Assembly: GCA_003168265.1 (NCBI GenBank)
Contig: PMSV01000012.1
Location: 62,001 to 126,000 of the forward strand
Source of the DNA: Chitinophagaceae bacterium
GTDB lineage: Bacteria; Bacteroidota; Bacteroidia; Chitinophagales; Chitinophagaceae
Direction of reading: 5' to 3'
Length of the DNA stretch: 64,000 nucleotides
Shown here: in pieces, positions 53,630 through 61,116 of the stretch
How the letters are laid out: each line of letters opens with the position of its first letter
How positions within the stretch are numbered: the stretch's first letter is position 1
The notes under the pieces: generated by a model
Told to the model about the DNA's origin: nothing
The model's input: the letters and a program-made list of their open reading frames with translations, nothing else
Databases searched by the model: none
Program-made: the position numbers and the translations under genes

Positions 53630-53740
53630 TTATTTAGTCCCGTAGTAGTCTCCGAAGAGACAGGCGGCGGCAAAATGAAGAAGCATAAGCTTGCTCTTAC
53701 GGCTTGAATGATAAAATTGGTTTTGCATTGTTTTGGTCAT
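53630..53740 (-). CDS. Short ORF (36 codons) leading the porin transcript
   Basis: A minus-strand ORF starts 4 bases after an exact -7 element (TATATTTG, 53752-53745), so it may be leaderless. It encodes MTKTMQNQFYHSS... and ends LHFAAACLFGDYYGTK, 69 bases before the porin ATG. No Shine-Dalgarno or signal is present. It could be a leader peptide or chance; the position is what suggests function. Its middle is basic, its end hydrophobic and aromatic with one Cys. Confidence 0.4.
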   Translation of the reverse strand: MTKTMQNQFYHSSRKSKLMLLHFAAACLFGDYYGTK

Positions 53741-53744
53741 GGTG

Positions 53745-53776
53745 CAAATATATTAATTTTCCTACTAATTTAGTAG
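53745..53776 (-). promoter_or_regulatory. Promoter with perfect 15-base palindrome before the porin
   Basis: The palindrome CTACTAAATTAGTAG (53776-53762, two 7-base arms, one-base centre) lies 9 bases upstream of TATATTTG (53752-53745), in the -33 region. A dimeric regulator such as an Rrf2-type protein could bind there. No such regulator gene is in the window. Confidence 0.55.
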
Positions 53777-53814
53777 ACTTTCTAATAAAATATTTTTCTG
53801 AAAAAATATTTGAC

Positions 53815-55479
53815 TCATACAAATATTTTACGCATAACAAAATCTCCAAAACCTTCTTTTGGATTGCGCTCTGACCTGAATCTTCGAAATAGGCCATCAA
53901 GTTCCAGGATTATTTCATTTTCACCCAGGCTCTCTCTAAACAACCGGTTCAGACGGGTCCCTTCGTAATCGCCGCCCAGATGAAGATTATACCTTCCCGG
54001 CGCTGTCCCGATCAATCCGATCTCAGCCAGGTAAGGGCGGGCACATCCATTTGGGCAACCCGTCATCCTTATAACGATCTGCTCTTCTTCCAGGCCATGG
54101 TGGGAAAGCAGGGTTTCCAACTTATCAATCAGTCCCGGCAAATACCGTTGAGCCTCCGCCAGGGCCAGGGGGCATGTGGGTAAAGAGACGCAGGCCATGG
54201 AATTCTTGCGTAGTAGGCCCAGGGTATCCATAAAAGCACGAATTCCGAACCGGTCCAGAATCCCCTCGACAATTGGCTTGTCCTTTCCATCAATATCAGC
54301 AATGATCACATTTTGATTGCCGGTAAATCGAAAATTTGCCGTTTTGCTTTTGGCGATCTCCAGAATGGCGGATTTCATGGCCAACCCCTTCTCATCGAGC
54401 ACCCTTCCATTCTCAATAAACAGAGTATAATGCCATTTTCCGGCCAGATCCCTCTCCCATCCATAAGCGTCTCCCCTTTCAGTAAATAAAAAAGGCTTCG
54501 CGGGCTCAAACAGCCACCCGTTTCTGCGTTCGACTTCTTCTTTGAACCATTTAATGCCATGGTTGTCCACTGTATATTTAAGCCTGGCCAGTTTTCGGTC
54601 GCTCCGGTTTCCGAAATCCCGCTGGATACTGGTAATAGCATATACGGTTTTTAGGATCTTTTCATCCGATAATGACGCATCCAGAAAACCGATGACAGTA
54701 GCCAACCTGGGATACGTAGAAGGGTTGCCATAAGTAGTCGAAAGCCCCCCTCCCACTGCTACATTAAAACCCTTAAGTCTTCCCTTTTCAATGATCGCGA
54801 TGAGCCCGACATCATTGGCAAATACATCCCCATCGTTGTTTGGGGGAATCGCAATTGCAATCTTGAATTTTCTCGGCAAGTAACGTTCCTGGTAAAGAGG
54901 ATCGTCCTCATCCCTTTTATCAGCTATCTTTTCTTCATCCAGCCAGATCTCGTAATAGGCTCTTGTTCGCGGCATCAGGTATTGACTGATCTTGTCAGCA
55001 TACTCTTGAATGGCGCTATGAAGCGAAGAATTAGCCGGATTCCCTGAACAGATCACGTTGCGATTGATATCCCCGCAAGTCGCTATTGAATCCAGCTTAA
55101 CCTCATCAAAAGCTTTGATGGTTGGTTTTATATGAGATTTGATGATTCCATGCAATTGAACTGTTTGCCTGGTCGTGATTTTTATCACCCCGGTTGAGTG
55201 GGTCTCTGCTATTTCATGGATCGCGATCCATTGGTCCGCAGAAAGCAATCCACCTGGAAGGCGCAAACGGATCATATAAGAATAAAGTCTTTCCAGCTTT
55301 TTTTCCGCCCTTTCATCCCTTCTGTCACGGTCATCCTGTTGGTACATACCATGAAATTTAATGATGGACTGATCGTCTTCTCTCAAGGATCCCGTCAGTT
55401 CATCTGAGAGGCTTTCCTTGATGGTTCCCCGCAAACCCCTGCTCTCTTTCTTGATTTTTTCGGTTGGGCTTTCCGCCAT
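53815..55479 (-). CDS. cysI: Assimilatory sulfite reductase hemoprotein subunit
   Basis: A 554-residue siroheme and [4Fe-4S] enzyme reducing sulfite to sulfide with six electrons from CysJ. The cluster and siroheme Cys are C430 and C436 (ACVSLPTCPLAL), then C475 and C479 (TGCPNGCAR), as in E. coli CysI. Ferredoxin-like repeats occur (TTRQTVQLHG, FRFTGNQNVIIAD). The N-terminal start at 55479 gives a full-length protein. The stop is 74 bases before the palindrome. It follows cysJ by 10 bases in the same operon. Confidence 0.96.
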   Translation of the reverse strand: MAESPTEKIKKESRGLRGTIKESLSDELTGSLREDDQSIIKFHGMYQQDDRDRRDERAEKKLERLYSYMIRLRLPGGLLSADQWIAIHEIAETHSTGVIKITTRQTVQLHGIIKSHIKPTIKAFDEVKLDSIATCGDINRNVICSGNPANSSLHSAIQEYADKISQYLMPRTRAYYEIWLDEEKIADKRDEDDPLYQERYLPRKFKIAIAIPPNNDGDVFANDVGLIAIIEKGRLKGFNVAVGGGLSTTYGNPSTYPRLATVIGFLDASLSDEKILKTVYAITSIQRDFGNRSDRKLARLKYTVDNHGIKWFKEEVERRNGWLFEPAKPFLFTERGDAYGWERDLAGKWHYTLFIENGRVLDEKGLAMKSAILEIAKSKTANFRFTGNQNVIIADIDGKDKPIVEGILDRFGIRAFMDTLGLLRKNSMACVSLPTCPLALAEAQRYLPGLIDKLETLLSHHGLEEEQIVIRMTGCPNGCARPYLAEIGLIGTAPGRYNLHLGGDYEGTRLNRLFRESLGENEIILELDGLFRRFRSERNPKEGFGDFVMRKIFV

Positions 55480-55489
55480 ATATTTAGAA

Positions 55490-57175
55490 TTAATAAACGT
55501 CCGTTAAATAACGACCTGAACTTTTCAGTTCTTCCAGGAATTCCTCAGCCTGCCCATCCTTCCGTTTCCCATGTTCACTAATTATCGATCTAAATGCATT
55601 CTCAACATCCTCGCTCATTGGATTTCTCGAGCCGCAAACATAGATCACTGCCCCCTTTTCAATCCAATTGTAAATTTCCCGGCCCTGTTCCCGAATGCGA
55701 TGCTGAACATAGATTTTATCCGCCTGGTCCCTGGAAAAAGCCAAATGGACATGTTTCAATACACCTGTTTGGACCCATTGCTGTATTTCAGACTGATATA
55801 GAAAATCACTTATAAAATGTTGTTCCCCGAAGAAAAGCCAATTATAGCCTGTGGCTCCTGAAGCATCCCGATGCGAAAGAAAGGATCGGAAGGGCGCAAT
55901 TCCCGTACCCGGACCGATCATAACGATCGGTTTTTCAGAATCTGGCAATCGGAATTGATGATTCTTATGGATATAGAATTCCTGCATATCCTGAACTTGT
56001 AACCCGGTTAAAATATCCGAGCAGAGTCCATAACGCGTTTCTCCATATGCCTCATAGTTGCTCTTAGAAACCGTCAGGTGTATTTCATCCGGATGCGCCT
56101 TTGGAGAGGATGAGATTGAATAGAGTCTGGGAGCAATCGGTTCCAGGGACTGAAATATCTCTTTCCAGATTTCGCTGTTTTTAACCGGATAGGCTTTTAC
56201 GAGGTCGGACAAGTGCCATCTTTCACCACTTATTTCATTGCCGGTAATACCCGCATATCTCCCCACTACCCGCTCTGGCAAACAGGTTATATTCAATTTT
56301 GTTTTCAACAAATCAAACATACTCATCCTGCCAAACCGGTGTTCGATCTGTTCCTCTGCGTCGGCCCCAACCCGATCCAAAATTTCCAATACCGTTTTAT
56401 CACTATTGACCGGTACCACCCCAATGGAGTCGCCAGGTTCATAGTCGACCCGCTCAATACCGATTTCTATATGATGGGTTTGTTTGGCAGAACCGCGGTC
56501 ATTCAGATTGATATTGGCGATTATCGTCCCTTTAAGGAATTTCTTTCCACCGGTTCTCCTGCTTCCTGGCTTCAATTTTACTTCAGGCCTGGAAGCATTT
56601 TCCATTCTTCCCAAAACTTCCGCAAACCACTGTTCGGCATTTGACTGGAAATCCACATCGCATCTTTGAATTTCCGTTATTCTTTCCGCACCAAGATTTT
56701 CCAACTGGCGGTCCATATCCTCTCCTGCCTTGCAAAACATGGGGTAAGCAGAATCCCCAAGAGCCAGTATGCTGTATTTCATTTTATCCAGCCGGAAACC
56801 ATTATGATGGATATGCTGGAAGAATTTCCTGCCAGCGGCAGGAGGTTCCCCATCCCCATGTGTGCTGACAATTGCAAAAAAAAACTCTTCCTTAACCAAA
56901 TCAGAAGGGCGGTATTGATCCAGGCTTTGCACACGGGCATGCACACCCTTTTGTTTTGCACGGATGGCCAGCTCAGAAGCTAATTTCTTGGAATTTCCCG
57001 TTTCGGTCGCATATGCAATTGTTATTTTGTGCGGTAAAGAATTGCCTTCATTTTTGATACTTTCCATTGGCTTTTCCAACAGGGCGGACAGATACCCGTT
57101 TAGCCAGATTAATTCTTCCCGGGTCAGAGCAGAAATCAGTTCCTGAAACGCCTTTAATTTATTTTCCGCTATCAT
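55490..57175 (-). CDS. cysJ: Sulfite reductase (NADPH) flavoprotein subunit
   Basis: A 561-residue diflavin reductase passing electrons from NADPH to CysI. Residues ~50-185 are a flavodoxin domain (IAYATETGNSKKLASEL, STHGDGEPP, LALGDSAYPMFC). FAD-binding (RLYSISSSPKAHPDEIHLTVS) and NADP-binding regions (MIGPGTGIAPFRSFL, YVCGSRNPMSEDV) follow, and the protein ends GRYLTDVY with the usual terminal Tyr. It sits between cobA and cysI with short gaps, in the sulfate reduction operon. Confidence 0.95.
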   Translation of the reverse strand: MIAENKLKAFQELISALTREELIWLNGYLSALLEKPMESIKNEGNSLPHKITIAYATETGNSKKLASELAIRAKQKGVHARVQSLDQYRPSDLVKEEFFFAIVSTHGDGEPPAAGRKFFQHIHHNGFRLDKMKYSILALGDSAYPMFCKAGEDMDRQLENLGAERITEIQRCDVDFQSNAEQWFAEVLGRMENASRPEVKLKPGSRRTGGKKFLKGTIIANINLNDRGSAKQTHHIEIGIERVDYEPGDSIGVVPVNSDKTVLEILDRVGADAEEQIEHRFGRMSMFDLLKTKLNITCLPERVVGRYAGITGNEISGERWHLSDLVKAYPVKNSEIWKEIFQSLEPIAPRLYSISSSPKAHPDEIHLTVSKSNYEAYGETRYGLCSDILTGLQVQDMQEFYIHKNHQFRLPDSEKPIVMIGPGTGIAPFRSFLSHRDASGATGYNWLFFGEQHFISDFLYQSEIQQWVQTGVLKHVHLAFSRDQADKIYVQHRIREQGREIYNWIEKGAVIYVCGSRNPMSEDVENAFRSIISEHGKRKDGQAEEFLEELKSSGRYLTDVY

Positions 57176-57189
57176 TTAACCTTGTTTGG

Positions 57190-58023
57190 TCATGCTCTCG
57201 CATAATTTTCCTTCTTATCCTCCAACTGTTCAAAATAGTTTTTCCTTTCACAATTATCAGGCATCCAACTAAAATGGCTATTAAGGACGGCGACCCTGCC
57301 AATGACGATTATGGCTGGAGAAATAATACTCTCATAAGCCCTTCTTTTTTCAAAATCCTCTATCGAGCAGTTGACCACATGCTGAAATGGCGTGGATGCC
57401 TGTTCTATGATTGCAAGGCCCTTGTCTTTTTCAATACCGGCGCTTATCAGGTTATCCACTATTTGCTCCAGGTTTTCCGAAGACATGTAAAATACCAGAG
57501 TGTCTTCGGTCCTTGCTAATTCCCCCCAAATCGATTCAGTCCAATCCCTGAGCCTGTGACAGGTAAGATATCGGACAGATTGAGCGTAACCCCTGGCTGT
57601 CAATGGGATTCCGGAGTATGCCGCCGCACCTGAAGCTGCTGTGATACCGGGCACAATTTCGTATTCGATCCCTAGAGAAACCAGTATCTGCAGTTCATCC
57701 AATATATTGGAAAACAGGGTGGCATCGCCCCCTTTCAAACGAACCACTAATTTGCCTTGTTTGGCATAAAAAACAATCAGGTCATTAATCCTGCTTTGTG
57801 AAACGGATGCCCCGCAGCCTCCTTGCTTCCCAACACGGCATATCAAAGTATTCTTACTTACGTAACGCTTCAGTAAAACCGGACTTACCAGACGATCGGT
57901 AATTACAACCTCTGCCCTTTGAAGCCATTGAGCCGCTTTGACGGTGATGAGATCCGGGTCTCCGGGCCCGGCACCGGCTATGATCACTTTACCCTGTTTC
58001 TTTATAAATGTTGTGGTATTCAT
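57190..58023 (-). CDS. cobA: Uroporphyrinogen-III C-methyltransferase
   Basis: A 277-residue SAM-dependent methyltransferase making precorrin-2 from uroporphyrinogen III. The N-terminal loop AGAGPGDPDLITVKA, the VRLKGGDATLFSN loop (GGDP-type) and EYEIVPGITAASGAAAYSGIPLT are the family marks. With the Met8-type half of the fusion at 50792 it gives siroheme for CysI. It lacks the HemD or CysG fusion. It lies 37 bases after cysN and 14 bases before cysJ. Confidence 0.95.
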   Translation of the reverse strand: MNTTTFIKKQGKVIIAGAGPGDPDLITVKAAQWLQRAEVVITDRLVSPVLLKRYVSKNTLICRVGKQGGCGASVSQSRINDLIVFYAKQGKLVVRLKGGDATLFSNILDELQILVSLGIEYEIVPGITAASGAAAYSGIPLTARGYAQSVRYLTCHRLRDWTESIWGELARTEDTLVFYMSSENLEQIVDNLISAGIEKDKGLAIIEQASTPFQHVVNCSIEDFEKRRAYESIISPAIIVIGRVAVLNSHFSWMPDNCERKNYFEQLEDKKENYARA

Positions 58024-58060: not shown

Positions 58061-59302
58061 TTATTGGATCATACAGGCTCCGACCGTTGCATTGCTGGTT
58101 TCATCGATCAATATTGCTCCGCCATTTACGCGCAAATCCTTATAACTGTCAAATGGCAGTGGCGCTGCTGTCCTAATGGAAACCTTCACAATATCATTTA
58201 ACATGGCTTCATAAACCTCCTCATTTTTAGTCAGTGTATTGACATCAAGCCGATATTCAATTTCCCTGACCATAGCCTTTATTGTCAGACTATTTATTTG
58301 TAAAATGTATTTGTTGCCAGGATGCAGTGGCTTTTTGTCCATCCAGCAGAGCAGCACATCCAGTTCCTGGTTAACCTGGGGCAGATGATCTTCTTTCACA
58401 AGAAGGTCACCCCGGCCAATATCAATATCATCTATCAGAGTAATTACAGCGCTTTGAGGGGCATAGGCAAAATCCACCTGCTTTCCTCCAACTTCTATGG
58501 AAGAAATCCTGCTTTTCAGTCCGGAAGGCAGAACCATGATCTGATCCCCGGTCCGATAAATACCGCTGATGAGTTTGCCTGCATAGCCTCGGTAATCCGG
58601 CAATTCCTCTGTTTGCGGCCTAATGACAAACTGAATGGGGAATCTGGGAACAGTCAGGTTAATATCATTGTCCAAATGAATATTTTCAAGCAATTGTAAC
58701 AAGGTTTCCCCATGGTACCATGACAGGTTTTCCGATTTCTCCACGATATTGTCCCCTCTTAGTGCGCTGATCGGCAAGAAATGAATATCCTTCAGGCCAA
58801 GGCTTTTTCCCATCTCCGAATAGTCGATAACGATATTGTTATAAATGTCCTCTGCAAAATCTACCAGGTCCATTTTATTGATTGCTACGACCAGGTGGGG
58901 AATATTCAGTAAGGATGCAATGATGGAATGTCTTCTGGTTTGCTCCGCTACTCCGTTACGTGCATCTATCAAAATGATGATCAGGTCGGCTTTAGATGCA
59001 CCGGTCACCATATTCCTTGTATATTGAATGTGCCCAGGAGCATCTGCGATGATGAATTTTCTCTTAGCTGTGGAGAAATATTTATAAGCCACATCAATTG
59101 TTATACCCTGTTCGCGTTCCGCTCTCAGACCATCAGTCACCAATGCCAGGTCAATTTCTCCGTCCTCCTTTAACCGGCTTTGCTTCTCAAGGGCTTCCAT
59201 TTGGTCGATCAATATGCTCTTACTGTCATAAAGAAGGCGTCCGATCAATGTGCTTTTCCCGTCATCGACACTGCCTGCAGTAATGAATCTCAATATGTCC
59301 AT
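58061..59302 (-). CDS. cysN: Sulfate adenylyltransferase GTPase subunit
   Basis: A 413-residue EF-Tu-like GTPase that drives APS synthesis by CysD. G1 is GSVDDGKSTLIGR, G3 is DAPGHIQYTRN, G4 is NKMDLVDF. The following beta-barrel domains are complete. No APS kinase (CysC) is fused to the C-terminus, in keeping with an APS reductase route. It follows cysD by 27 bases. Confidence 0.96.
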   Translation of the reverse strand: MDILRFITAGSVDDGKSTLIGRLLYDSKSILIDQMEALEKQSRLKEDGEIDLALVTDGLRAEREQGITIDVAYKYFSTAKRKFIIADAPGHIQYTRNMVTGASKADLIIILIDARNGVAEQTRRHSIIASLLNIPHLVVAINKMDLVDFAEDIYNNIVIDYSEMGKSLGLKDIHFLPISALRGDNIVEKSENLSWYHGETLLQLLENIHLDNDINLTVPRFPIQFVIRPQTEELPDYRGYAGKLISGIYRTGDQIMVLPSGLKSRISSIEVGGKQVDFAYAPQSAVITLIDDIDIGRGDLLVKEDHLPQVNQELDVLLCWMDKKPLHPGNKYILQINSLTIKAMVREIEYRLDVNTLTKNEEVYEAMLNDIVKVSIRTAAPLPFDSYKDLRVNGGAILIDETSNATVGACMIQ

Positions 59303-59329: not shown

Positions 59330-60241
59330 CTAAAAATAACCATTCTTTTTACGGTCTTCCATTGCCGCCTCCGAAAACTTGTCATCGATCCTGGTCTCCC
59401 CTCTTTCACTGGTTCGCGTAACCGTAATTTCTTCAATGATGCTATCCACATCAATGGCAGTTGATTCTACGGCAGCAGTACAGGTCATGTCGCCAACCGT
59501 CCGGTATCGAACCTTCTTCTTAAGTATGGTATCCGAAGGATCCAGAAGGATAAAAGAAGAATAGGCCACAAGTTGTCCTTCAAATTCGATGACTTCACGA
59601 TCATGAGAGAAATAAATGGAAGGCAGGGAAATCTTTTCCCTGCGGATATAGTTCCATACGTCCAATTCGGTCCAATTGCTTATTGGAAAAGCCCTCACAT
59701 TTTCACCCTTATGAATTTTTCCGTTGTAAGTATTCCAAAGCTCGGGTCTTTGCAATTTAGGGTCCCATTGTCCGAATTCATCCCGCACTGAAAATATCCT
59801 CTCTTTTGCCCTGGCTTTCTCTTCATCCCTGCGTCCGCCTCCAATACAGACATCGAATTCGAATTCTGCAATGGCATCCAAAAGAGTATAGGTCTGCAAT
59901 TGATTGCGACTGGCAAATTTGCCCCTCGGTTCGGTCAATTTTTTTTCCCTTATTGTATCTTCCACCTTACGGATAATGAGTTTTTCACCGATCTGTCCTA
60001 CAAGCGAGTCCCGAAACTCCAGGGCCTCGGGAAAATTATGGCCCGTGTCAATATGCAATAAAGGAAAGGGAAATTTACCTGGCCTGAAGGCCTTTAAAGC
60101 TAAATGAACCAGGGTAATGCTGTCTTTCCCACCGCTAAACAACAGGGCAGGCCGTTCAAATTGTCCCGCAACTTCTCTCAAAATATGAATTGCTTCGGAT
60201 TCGAGTTGGTCAAGGTAATCTACAGTATATTCAGTCTTCAT
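59330..60241 (-). CDS. cysD: Sulfate adenylyltransferase small subunit
   Basis: A 303-residue PP-loop ATP pyrophosphatase forming APS from sulfate and ATP. The PP motif is FSGGKDSITLVHLA; DTGHNFPE, RRDEEKARAKER and ending SEAAMEDRKKNGYF are typical CysD features. The start at 60241 (KTEYTVDYLDQLESEAIHI) is chosen because a longer frame to 60331 overlaps the cysH coding region and is not conserved in the family. It follows cysH by 35 bases. Confidence 0.96.
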   Translation of the reverse strand: MKTEYTVDYLDQLESEAIHILREVAGQFERPALLFSGGKDSITLVHLALKAFRPGKFPFPLLHIDTGHNFPEALEFRDSLVGQIGEKLIIRKVEDTIREKKLTEPRGKFASRNQLQTYTLLDAIAEFEFDVCIGGGRRDEEKARAKERIFSVRDEFGQWDPKLQRPELWNTYNGKIHKGENVRAFPISNWTELDVWNYIRREKISLPSIYFSHDREVIEFEGQLVAYSSFILLDPSDTILKKKVRYRTVGDMTCTAAVESTAIDVDSIIEEITVTRTSERGETRIDDKFSEAAMEDRKKNGYF

Positions 60242-60276
60242 TTTCTTTAAGTTTAAAATCCATTTAGCACATGCCT

Positions 60277-60993
60277 TCAAATCTGCTGATGAAGTCCGCA
60301 TTCTTTTTTCCCTTCCTCTTCCCACCACCATCTCCCAGCCCTCATATCCTCACCGGGCCGAACCGCCCTTGTGCAGGGAGCGCATCCAATACTCAAAAAC
60401 CCCTGATCATGTAAAATATTGTAAGGTATATTGTAAAGCTGCATAAATTCATTTACCTGCCCGCTTGACCAATGCAATAGGGGGTGATATTTTAAGACCT
60501 GGTTACCCTCATCCCATTCCAGCGTTTGCAAATTACTTCTCCCGGTGGAATGTTCCGCTCTCAAGCCTGTGATCCAAACAGCCTGACCCTCAAGGGCTCT
60601 TTTCAAGGGTTCCACTTTGCGGATAAAGCAGCAATTTTTTCTGTTTTCAACAGATGCATAAAACGCATTTGGTCCGTTTTTTTCTATAAAAGGTTCAAGC
60701 AGGTCCCTATTGGGATAATAAGCCTTAATGGTCTGACCGTATTTTTCCTGGGTAGCGGCCCAGGCGGAATAAGTCTCCCCAAATAATCTACCGGTATCCA
60801 GCGTAAATACCGGCAATGGGAGCCTTTCAGAAAAAATGAAATGGGTAATTACCTGGTCTTCCTGGCTAAAACTGGAAGAAAAAACAACCTGGCCGGGAAA
60901 TCGTTTCAAAAGAAACACAATTGCATCCTGCGGTATCAGTCTACTCAAACTATAGGTTAAATCCGAAAATGCTGTTTCCTTGGGTTGATCCAT
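60277..60993 (-). CDS. cysH: APS reductase (CysH, iron-sulfur type)
   Basis: A 238-residue assimilatory reductase that converts APS to sulfite using thioredoxin. Unlike PAPS-specific CysH it carries the iron-sulfur motif: C121-C122 (NCCFIRKVEPL) and C204-x-x-C207 (GCAPCTRAV), so APS is its likely substrate. The catalytic Cys is C232 in ECGLHQQ near the end. This fits the absence of a CysC kinase. It is the first large gene of the operon, preceded by a short ORF with a Cys run and a good -7 element. Confidence 0.96.
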   Translation of the reverse strand: MDQPKETAFSDLTYSLSRLIPQDAIVFLLKRFPGQVVFSSSFSQEDQVITHFIFSERLPLPVFTLDTGRLFGETYSAWAATQEKYGQTIKAYYPNRDLLEPFIEKNGPNAFYASVENRKNCCFIRKVEPLKRALEGQAVWITGLRAEHSTGRSNLQTLEWDEGNQVLKYHPLLHWSSGQVNEFMQLYNIPYNILHDQGFLSIGCAPCTRAVRPGEDMRAGRWWWEEEGKKECGLHQQI

Positions 60994-61045
60994 CTTTAAA
61001 ATTATTAAGAAAAGATAGAGGAGTGAAGAAATTAGGCGATGCCTC

Positions 61046-61087
61046 CTAAATTAAGCAACAACAACAAAAGAAGTGAGCTTTGGCCAT
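61046..61087 (-). CDS. Putative polycysteine leader peptide of the sulfate assimilation operon
   Basis: A 13-codon minus-strand ORF, MAKAHFFCCCCLI, with four consecutive Cys codons (TGT TGT TGT TGC). It starts about 15-20 bases after the apparent transcription start and stops 52 bases before cysH. TTAGG/CCTAA and AGGAG/CTCCT pairings just after the Cys run overlap and exclude each other, as an attenuator would need. Cys-tRNA shortage would stall ribosomes at the run. Polycysteine leader ORFs that act this way are known in mycobacteria; here the function is inferred. Confidence 0.6.
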   Translation of the reverse strand: MAKAHFFCCCCLI

Positions 61088-61108
61088 GTAGTCTACAACT
61101 TTGATCGA

Positions 61109-61116
61109 CAAAAATA
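61109..61116 (-). promoter_or_regulatory. Putative -7 element of the cysHDN-cobA-cysJI operon
   Basis: TATTTTTG (61116-61109 on the minus strand) matches TAnnTTTG. TTG occurrences upstream do not give perfect -33 spacing; a T-run lies at about 61140. Confidence 0.5.

Follow-up and report, generated by a model that had tools for sequence, protein, structure and literature searches.

Poly-Cys leaderless short open reading frames (sORFs) were reportedly found to be functional in mycobacteria by Canestrari et al. in 2020. Passages from three other papers describe how cysteine availability controls the genes downstream of such mycobacterial sORFs (PMC9031893, PMC13236596, PMC9094748). Leaders in front of actinobacterial cys and cbs genes have Cys runs near the stop codon and no conserved terminator, and the excerpted text suggests an involvement of Rho with poly-pyrimidine stretches; the same excerpt names the tna operon (PMC1262725). 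A third example, again from an excerpt, is uORFC-8-2 of Rhodobacterales, which lies 5' of cysS and combines tandem Cys codons with stems and a probable intrinsic terminator (PMC8632094).

From Bacteroidota, an excerpt on Flavobacterium psychrophilum refers in general terms to the attenuation of amino-acid operons by leader peptides (PMC9723704), and one on B. thetaiotaomicron mentions sORFs reminiscent of leader peptides (PMC7366714). Among the matches listed in our literature search, we found no paper on a cysteine leader in this phylum; the supplements of PMC9723704 may include one. An earlier reading of the locus discussed here, made from the sequence only, had named Cys leaders from mycobacteria and knew of none described in Bacteroidota. 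The latter point agrees with the matches listed; beyond mycobacteria, there are also the actinobacterial and Rhodobacterales leaders in the excerpts of PMC1262725 and PMC8632094. As far as we searched, the Bacteroidota variant and its phylum are new.

The locus lies on the minus strand of a 64,000-nucleotide stretch of Chitinophagaceae DNA (the window; Table 1). The leader ORF reads ATG GCC AAA GCT CAC TTC TTT TGT TGT TGT TGC TTA ATT TAG, which agrees with the sequence-only reading of a 13-codon minus-strand ORF with four consecutive Cys codons between a -7 element and cysH. Its stop is followed by the cysH ATG (60993) after 52 nt, and the -7-like element ends 21 nt 5' of the leader ATG. The -7 consensus is taken as TAnnTTTG. 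By eye, we saw no TTTG-type -33 element at the usual spacing upstream of the window's -7 element. Rfam models gave no match at the gathering score in the whole window, and none matched at seven cysH loci. The operon behind the leader is one of sulfate assimilation, leading from sulfate to sulfide. Further genes of this operon encode an O/P-type porin and a TauE protein that also contains an NAD-binding domain.

Table 1. Features of the cysH leader region and of the downstream operon in the window.
Feature	Position	Strand	Remarks
Leader ORF MAKAHFFCCCCLI*, 13 codons + stop	61046-61087	minus	read from sequence
Cys codons TGT TGT TGT TGC	61055-61066	minus	two codons 5' of leader stop
Spacer, leader stop to cysH	60994-61045	minus	C 0.23, G 0.10; no significant terminator
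-7-like promoter element TATTTTTG	61109-61116	minus	match to TAnnTTTG
Candidate repressor operator, inverted repeat GTCGATCA-AAG-TTGTAGAC	61091-61109	minus	over probable transcription start
cysH, PAPS reductase family	60277-60993	minus	PF01507; first gene of operon
Second PF01507 protein, cysD-like	59330-60331	minus	true start probably 3' of listed ATG
cysN-like GTPase	58061-59302	minus	PF00009
Tetrapyrrole methylase, siroheme branch	57190-58023	minus	PF00590
Flavodoxin/FAD reductase, cysJ-like	55490-57175	minus	PF00258, PF00667
Sulfite reductase, cysI-like	53815-55479	minus	PF01077

As in mycobacteria, this is a short ORF with contiguous Cys codons 5' of cysteine and sulfur genes. Unlike the mycobacterial sORFs, it occurs in another phylum, is predicted to have a non-leaderless start (a 5' leader of about 15 nt is expected from the -7 element) and has a candidate operator over its promoter; a translational step is also not supported at cysH. 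Tandem Cys codons are shared with uORFC-8-2, which differs by its probable terminator and by controlling a cysteinyl-tRNA synthetase, according to the excerpt (PMC8632094).

Leaders of this type are common in front of cysH across the family. Among 195 genomes sampled from Chitinophagaceae, 124 gave a cysH match in a protein search, and we took the 300 nt upstream of the best match in each (n = 124), excluding copies of the window (L001, L002). A leader was defined as a short ATG-started uORF with CCC or at least four Cys in its last 12 codons. Such a uORF is present in 47 of the 124 upstream regions. The CCC part of the rule selects 43 regions, compared with a mean of 0.44 (maximum 3) in dinucleotide shuffles and 0 on the antisense strand; CCCC selects 26 (shuffle mean 0.015, maximum 1; antisense 0), and at least four Cys in the last 12 codons again selects 43 (shuffle mean 0.285, maximum 2). 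The next amino acid, Leu, forms runs of three in 10 and runs of four in 4 of the 124 regions. Two of the positives are doubtful: in L015 the last Cys is far from the stop, and L125 is a distant homologue with a terminator of its own. A relaxed search for weaker Cys leaders in the 77 leaderless cysH regions returned 4 candidates, with no excess over shuffles (mean 1.6, maximum 7).

The last Cys abuts the stop in 30 of the 47 leaders and lies no more than two codons from it in 45. Over the final four codons the Cys fraction is 0.62-0.85, compared with 0 at positions 17-20 counted back from the stop. Leader stops are located 36-83 nt 5' of cysH in 42 of the 47 cases, with a full range of 27-134 nt. 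A TAnnTTTG motif stands close to the uORF start in 40/47, as opposed to 8.7% of shuffles. Judged with a simple ORF caller, cysH is the first gene of its operon in 45/47 genomes with a leader versus 42/77 without (Fisher p = 4e-7). Of the 87 genomes in which cysH apparently comes first, 42 have no leader. All four genomes of the window's genus in the sample have one, namely MAKAHFFCCCCLI, ...HTCCCCNPGCCC, ...SCCNTCCCC and ...SNDCCC. When 23 pairs from the same genus were aligned, 115 of 131 Cys columns and 67 of 120 other columns were identical, a soft comparison, as BLOSUM62 favours Cys-Cys alignment. The proposal that relatives should keep the Cys codons while the flanks vary is thus borne out. 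Because the Cys run is kept at the same place in many relatives while the peptide otherwise changes, the ORF is very probably a cysteine gauge that is read by the ribosome.

In the same genome, runs of four TGY codons occur at 24 overlapping places, versus 9 for the reversed pattern. Five distinct places are followed by an ORF of at least 200 residues within 250-300 nt. These are cysH, metY, a CGS-like gene (L132), L133 and L136. At L133 the ORF overlaps the frame, and at L136 the frame is without start codon. The run before the CGS-like gene is a chance occurrence antisense to an apparent divergent gene, which we take to be DinB-like. Shorter Cys runs 5' of a stop give 175 matches as compared with 76 for the reversed pattern; the leaders of this genome were drawn from the four-codon runs, so weaker ones may be missed. 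That the window's leader is one of several such runs, one of them fortuitous, is what could be said for chance or a TTG/TGT microsatellite as its origin. This origin is refuted by the shuffles, the antisense strand and the other amino acids, as well as by the second site at metY. In addition, TGT and TGC are both present in 36 of 49 Cys runs, which indicates selection on codons instead of a microsatellite. We regard the probability of chance as negligible.

The codon run, its position at the stop and the nature of the controlled genes together suggest that the ribosome senses Cys-tRNA. We consider it highly probable that the ORF encodes a cis-acting, cysteine-sensing leader peptide, and that stalling on it would raise expression of the sulfate-assimilation operon. 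The operon would then be made when cysteine is short. How the state of the ribosome may be passed on to the operon is a separate question, for which the sequence-only reading had proposed mutually exclusive hairpins. The letters of its TTAGG/CCTAA and AGGAG/CTCCT pairings are present, yet folding of the window leader is not clearly above that of shuffles (z = +0.66 for 60980-61100 and +1.12 for a longer stretch). The segment from leader stop to cysH start has a z of -1.0 and a terminator score of -5.2 (p = 0.2). From stop to start, the 47 cysH leaders are no more structured than expected by chance (mean z = +0.25 +- 0.19), whereas 11 SAM-riboswitch controls reach a mean z of -3.9 in the same test. 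With the uORF included, whole cysH leaders exceed shuffles slightly in structure (mean z = -0.52 +- 0.18; 5/47 below -2). No terminator was found in the 47 cysH leaders as a set, with a median score of -2.0 against a shuffle mean of -2.9 and p <= 0.05 in 5/47; L125 has a strong one. Of the proposed cysteine-responsive attenuator, the leader peptide with its varying flanks is therefore retained, and the hairpins as its effector are not supported at cysH.

The same genome does contain a leader of the classical kind. A His leader, MNRIHHIHHHHTYPKG, precedes a hisG-like gene together with a terminator (L384, C17:103985; z = -2.7). This example indicates that ribosome-read leaders are in use in this organism and that our method would detect a terminator. 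By eye, the his leader also offers an alternative CCGGAG/CTCCGG pairing, as in a classical his attenuator. His- and trp-type attenuators share with the cysH leader the run of codons for the regulated amino acid, but their terminator and antiterminator were not found at the window's cysH. Absence of a conserved terminator next to a Cys run near the stop is instead a feature that the cysH leaders of Chitinophagaceae have in common with the actinobacterial cys and cbs leaders, as far as the latter are described in the excerpt (PMC1262725).

What distinguishes the RNA behind the leader stop is its base composition. In 44 leaders, the RNA becomes rich in C and poor in G precisely at the stop (first 50 nt: C 0.29 to 0.21, G 0.15 to 0.08). 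Spacers contain C 0.244 and G 0.118, compared with 0.179 and 0.154 in 492 control gene upstreams (p = 8e-13, shared ancestry ignored). The bias continues into the gene, as codons 2-21 of cysH have C 0.231 and G 0.145 with a leader versus 0.181 and 0.203 in the 42 leaderless genomes with cysH first (p = 2e-7, ancestry ignored); at codons 102-121 leader and leaderless genes show no base difference. For the upstream 60 nt, the difference persists when the comparison is restricted to the 25 closer leaderless genomes (p = 0.001). The resulting C>G bubble runs about 100 nt into cysH, which is short for a rut site. Rho is encoded in the genome. This C-rich, G-poor run from the uORF stop into cysH suggests Rho-dependent termination. 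The pyrimidine motifs of the actinobacterial leaders are called not conserved in the excerpt, while the bias in Chitinophagaceae, a different phylum, is statistical and was derived from 47 leaders with controls (PMC1262725).

These observations are consistent with the following mechanism. The ribosome would trail RNA polymerase from the promoter and translate the short ORF. With ample Cys-tRNA it would pass the Cys codons, terminate and depart, leaving the C-rich, unstructured RNA exposed to Rho. With scarce Cys-tRNA it would halt on the Cys codons, and since these abut the stop, the stalled ribosome would cover at least the 5' end of this RNA. In E. coli tnaC, the leader stop borders a Rho-loading region, and the ribosome stalls on the nascent peptide in the presence of excess tryptophan. 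The cysH leader resembles tnaC in that its stop would border a Rho-loading region from which a stalled ribosome would block Rho; unlike in tnaC, stalling would come from scarce Cys-tRNA. A repressor bound to the inverted repeat at the promoter may add a second layer of control. As an overall account, a cysteine-sensing leader with a Rho effector step and a repressor layer appears likely to us. Taken singly, the assignment of the effector step to Rho-dependent termination is tentative, with chances slightly short of even.

The ranking of possible effector steps follows from the lack of terminator and structure at cysH, the resemblance of the C>G bias to a Rho-loading site and the presence of Rho. 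On these grounds Rho stands first and a translational step second. In a translational device, a stalled ribosome would free the cysH start, or a passing one would fail to open it, without any termination of transcription. The short spacers (36-83 nt in 42/47 leaders) speak for this possibility, as does a predicted local hairpin, CUAUCUUU/AAAGAUGG, that holds the window's cysH AUG in the centroid structure; excerpts on the mycobacterial device also summarize it as translation attenuation (PMC9031893, PMC13236596). However, a ribosome on the Cys codons would not extend as far as the 5' arm of this hairpin, the stop-to-start segments of the 47 leaders show no surplus of structure, and the extension of the C>G bubble into cysH is left unexplained. 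We therefore judge a translational effector to be rather unlikely, if worth considering. An attenuator of the classical type, in which an intrinsic terminator competes with an antiterminator as put forward initially, is less probable still, given the terminator scores at cysH (median -2.0 versus -2.9 in shuffles; -5.2 with p = 0.2 in the window), even though some relatives outside the family (L190, L192, L213, L348; L188, L172) use such a device, 11 of 43 metY leaders have terminator-like hairpins at p <= 0.05, and the terminator of L125 is strong.

It is also conceivable that the peptide itself, instead of its codons, acts as sensor or actor by binding metal, sulfide or redox partners. Examples of Cys-rich uORF peptides with a role in copper control are known. 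In the leaders studied here, inspection by eye revealed no kept spacing of the CxxC type, the flanks vary and the run adjoins the stop; the mixed Met/Cys runs in Flavobacterium also argue against this role, which we deem very improbable.

The preferred reading, a cysteine-sensing leader with Rho and a repressor, includes the inverted repeat over the probable transcription start. Its family consensus, GTCTACTA-N3-TAGTAGAC, lies close to the -7 element, and the copy in the window scores 12. Scores of at least 12 out of 16 occur in 25 of 47 cysH leaders (22 with a spacer of 3) and in 16 of 44 metY leaders, but also in 13 of 77 leaderless cysH regions; shuffles reach this score in 3-4% and coding controls in 0 of 47. 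The repeat is probably an operator that is independent of the leader. Genome-wide it is not enriched (6 sites, compared with 34 for the reversed pattern), so the repeat motif alone is not specific. The genome encodes two Rrf2 proteins, one of them directly 5' of a cysK/CBS-like gene (L331, C21:337844). This protein is a candidate for binding the operator, and its likeness to CymR is one of context only; in the stretch inspected by eye near L331, no copy of the repeat was seen. Another copy of the repeat precedes a peroxiredoxin-like gene in the same genome (L333, C8:27300).

The second leader of this genome, MQPLVTYKVQKMPHSCCCCCCMP, is located 97 nt 5' of a PF01053 enzyme, which we named metY (O-acetylhomoserine sulfhydrylase) from its sequence. 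We examined 70 of the 86 family genomes with a metY match above 400 bits. Leaders with at least three Cys in the last 14 uORF codons precede 44 of these 70 genes, and the stricter cysH rule (CCC or at least four Cys in the last 12 codons) selects 42 (shuffle mean 0.14, maximum 1; antisense 3). Three of the positives are doubtful, namely L252, L305 and L254, the last having its stop 256 nt upstream of metY. Many metY leaders end in ...CCMP* and contain a stem-loop, UGUAUGCC-G(U/C)AA-GGCAUACA, that spans the stop. In an alignment of 43 of the 44 leaders, unselected for the stem, 75% of cells are paired, with 18 double changes versus 7 in shuffles; slid registers pair to no more than 49%. Several leaders with a stop beyond the loop have GCAA as the loop and retain the stem. 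With a mean z of -0.72 +- 0.17 and a terminator-like hairpin (p <= 0.05) in 11/43, the metY leaders stand between cysH leaders and SAM-riboswitch controls in structure.

SAM riboswitches themselves are frequent at metY. Among the 26 genes without Cys leader, 20 were searched with Rfam, and in 14 of these a same-strand SAM riboswitch lies upstream. Of 13 searched genes that do have a leader, 6 likewise have an upstream SAM riboswitch (L238, L239, L257, L291, L308 and L326). The Rfam matches with and without Cys leader show that the riboswitch and the leader alternate or stand in tandem. If our reading is true, metY in sister genomes is under a SAM riboswitch, a Cys leader or both.

Beyond the family, we sampled 80 named loci of Bacteroidota, some of which are genomes of the family set (e.g., L153, L160 and L183). 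Of 601 genes with 90 nt or more of free upstream sequence, 16 are preceded by a Cys leader, as opposed to 2 antisense. The 16 comprise cysH (9), sulfite reductase (2, one probably by chance), TonB receptors (2), and one each of metY, a cobA-like methylase and a porin; names beyond cysH and metY were assigned by eye. Rufibacter ruber (Hymenobacteraceae) is among the nine cysH loci. The peptide MCCCLSGRLLC before sulfite reductase in L168 falls, by eye, within a ferredoxin-like coding region and was discarded as a chance match. Counting Met as well and including L340-L364 gives 21 of 648 genes versus 3 antisense. Within L340-L364, a CCC short ORF within 1500 nt was found at 0 of 22 cysH loci from other families, among which L348 and L351 have Met/Cys or weaker leaders.

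Two tandem leaders rich in Met/Cys or Cys (e.g., ...NMMMCMCC... and ...CMMMMCCM...) stand 5' of cysH in L348 and in three of the 11 named Flavobacterium loci (F. humi, F. urocaniciphilum and F. limnosediminis; L190, L192 and L213, the second leader of L192 being read by eye). Each tandem leader has a terminator of -13.5 to -16.1 kcal/mol and an upstream arm of -9.8 to -13.4 kcal/mol that may compete with it as a possible antiterminator. Pedobacter (L188) and Mucilaginibacter (L172) have one leader 5' of sulfite reductase, with a terminator and a possible antiterminator. In these Flavobacterium, Pedobacter and Mucilaginibacter examples, the terminator of a his/trp-type attenuator is thus in place.

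Taken together, the data allow the more speculative proposal that a broad sulfur regulon of Bacteroidota is under ribosome-read Cys or Met/Cys leaders with swapped effectors. At cysH of Chitinophagaceae, this would be a Rho-type step without hairpins, under a repressor operator; at metY, a leader with a conserved GNRA stem-loop at the stop would take the place of a SAM riboswitch or stack with it; and Flavobacterium would use terminator attenuators in tandem. We hold this broad scheme with some reserve, as it is rather less probable than not. Bacteroidota ribosomes hardly use Shine-Dalgarno sites; if our reading is true, the phylum gains a group of ribosome-sensing switches that are tractable to study, and the occurrence of cysteine-reading leaders extends beyond the groups already described. 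Rho-dependent attenuation in Bacteroidota also becomes directly testable.

Several minor observations concern transport genes. Similar uORFs with RMCMCC near their end precede a TonB-receptor-like gene near cys genes in three species of Chryseobacterium (L179, L180 and L184). A porin-like gene of Mucilaginibacter (L181) has a CCCCCCC leader. Within the cysH operon of the window, a second copy of the inverted repeat is found 5' of the porin gene (53760-53778, minus strand). The same upstream region (53630-53778, minus strand) contains a TATATTTG element and a 36-codon ORF, MTKTMQNQFYHSSRKSKLMLLHFAAACLFGDYYGTK, with a single Cys and a GTCTC-TTCG-GAGAC hairpin.
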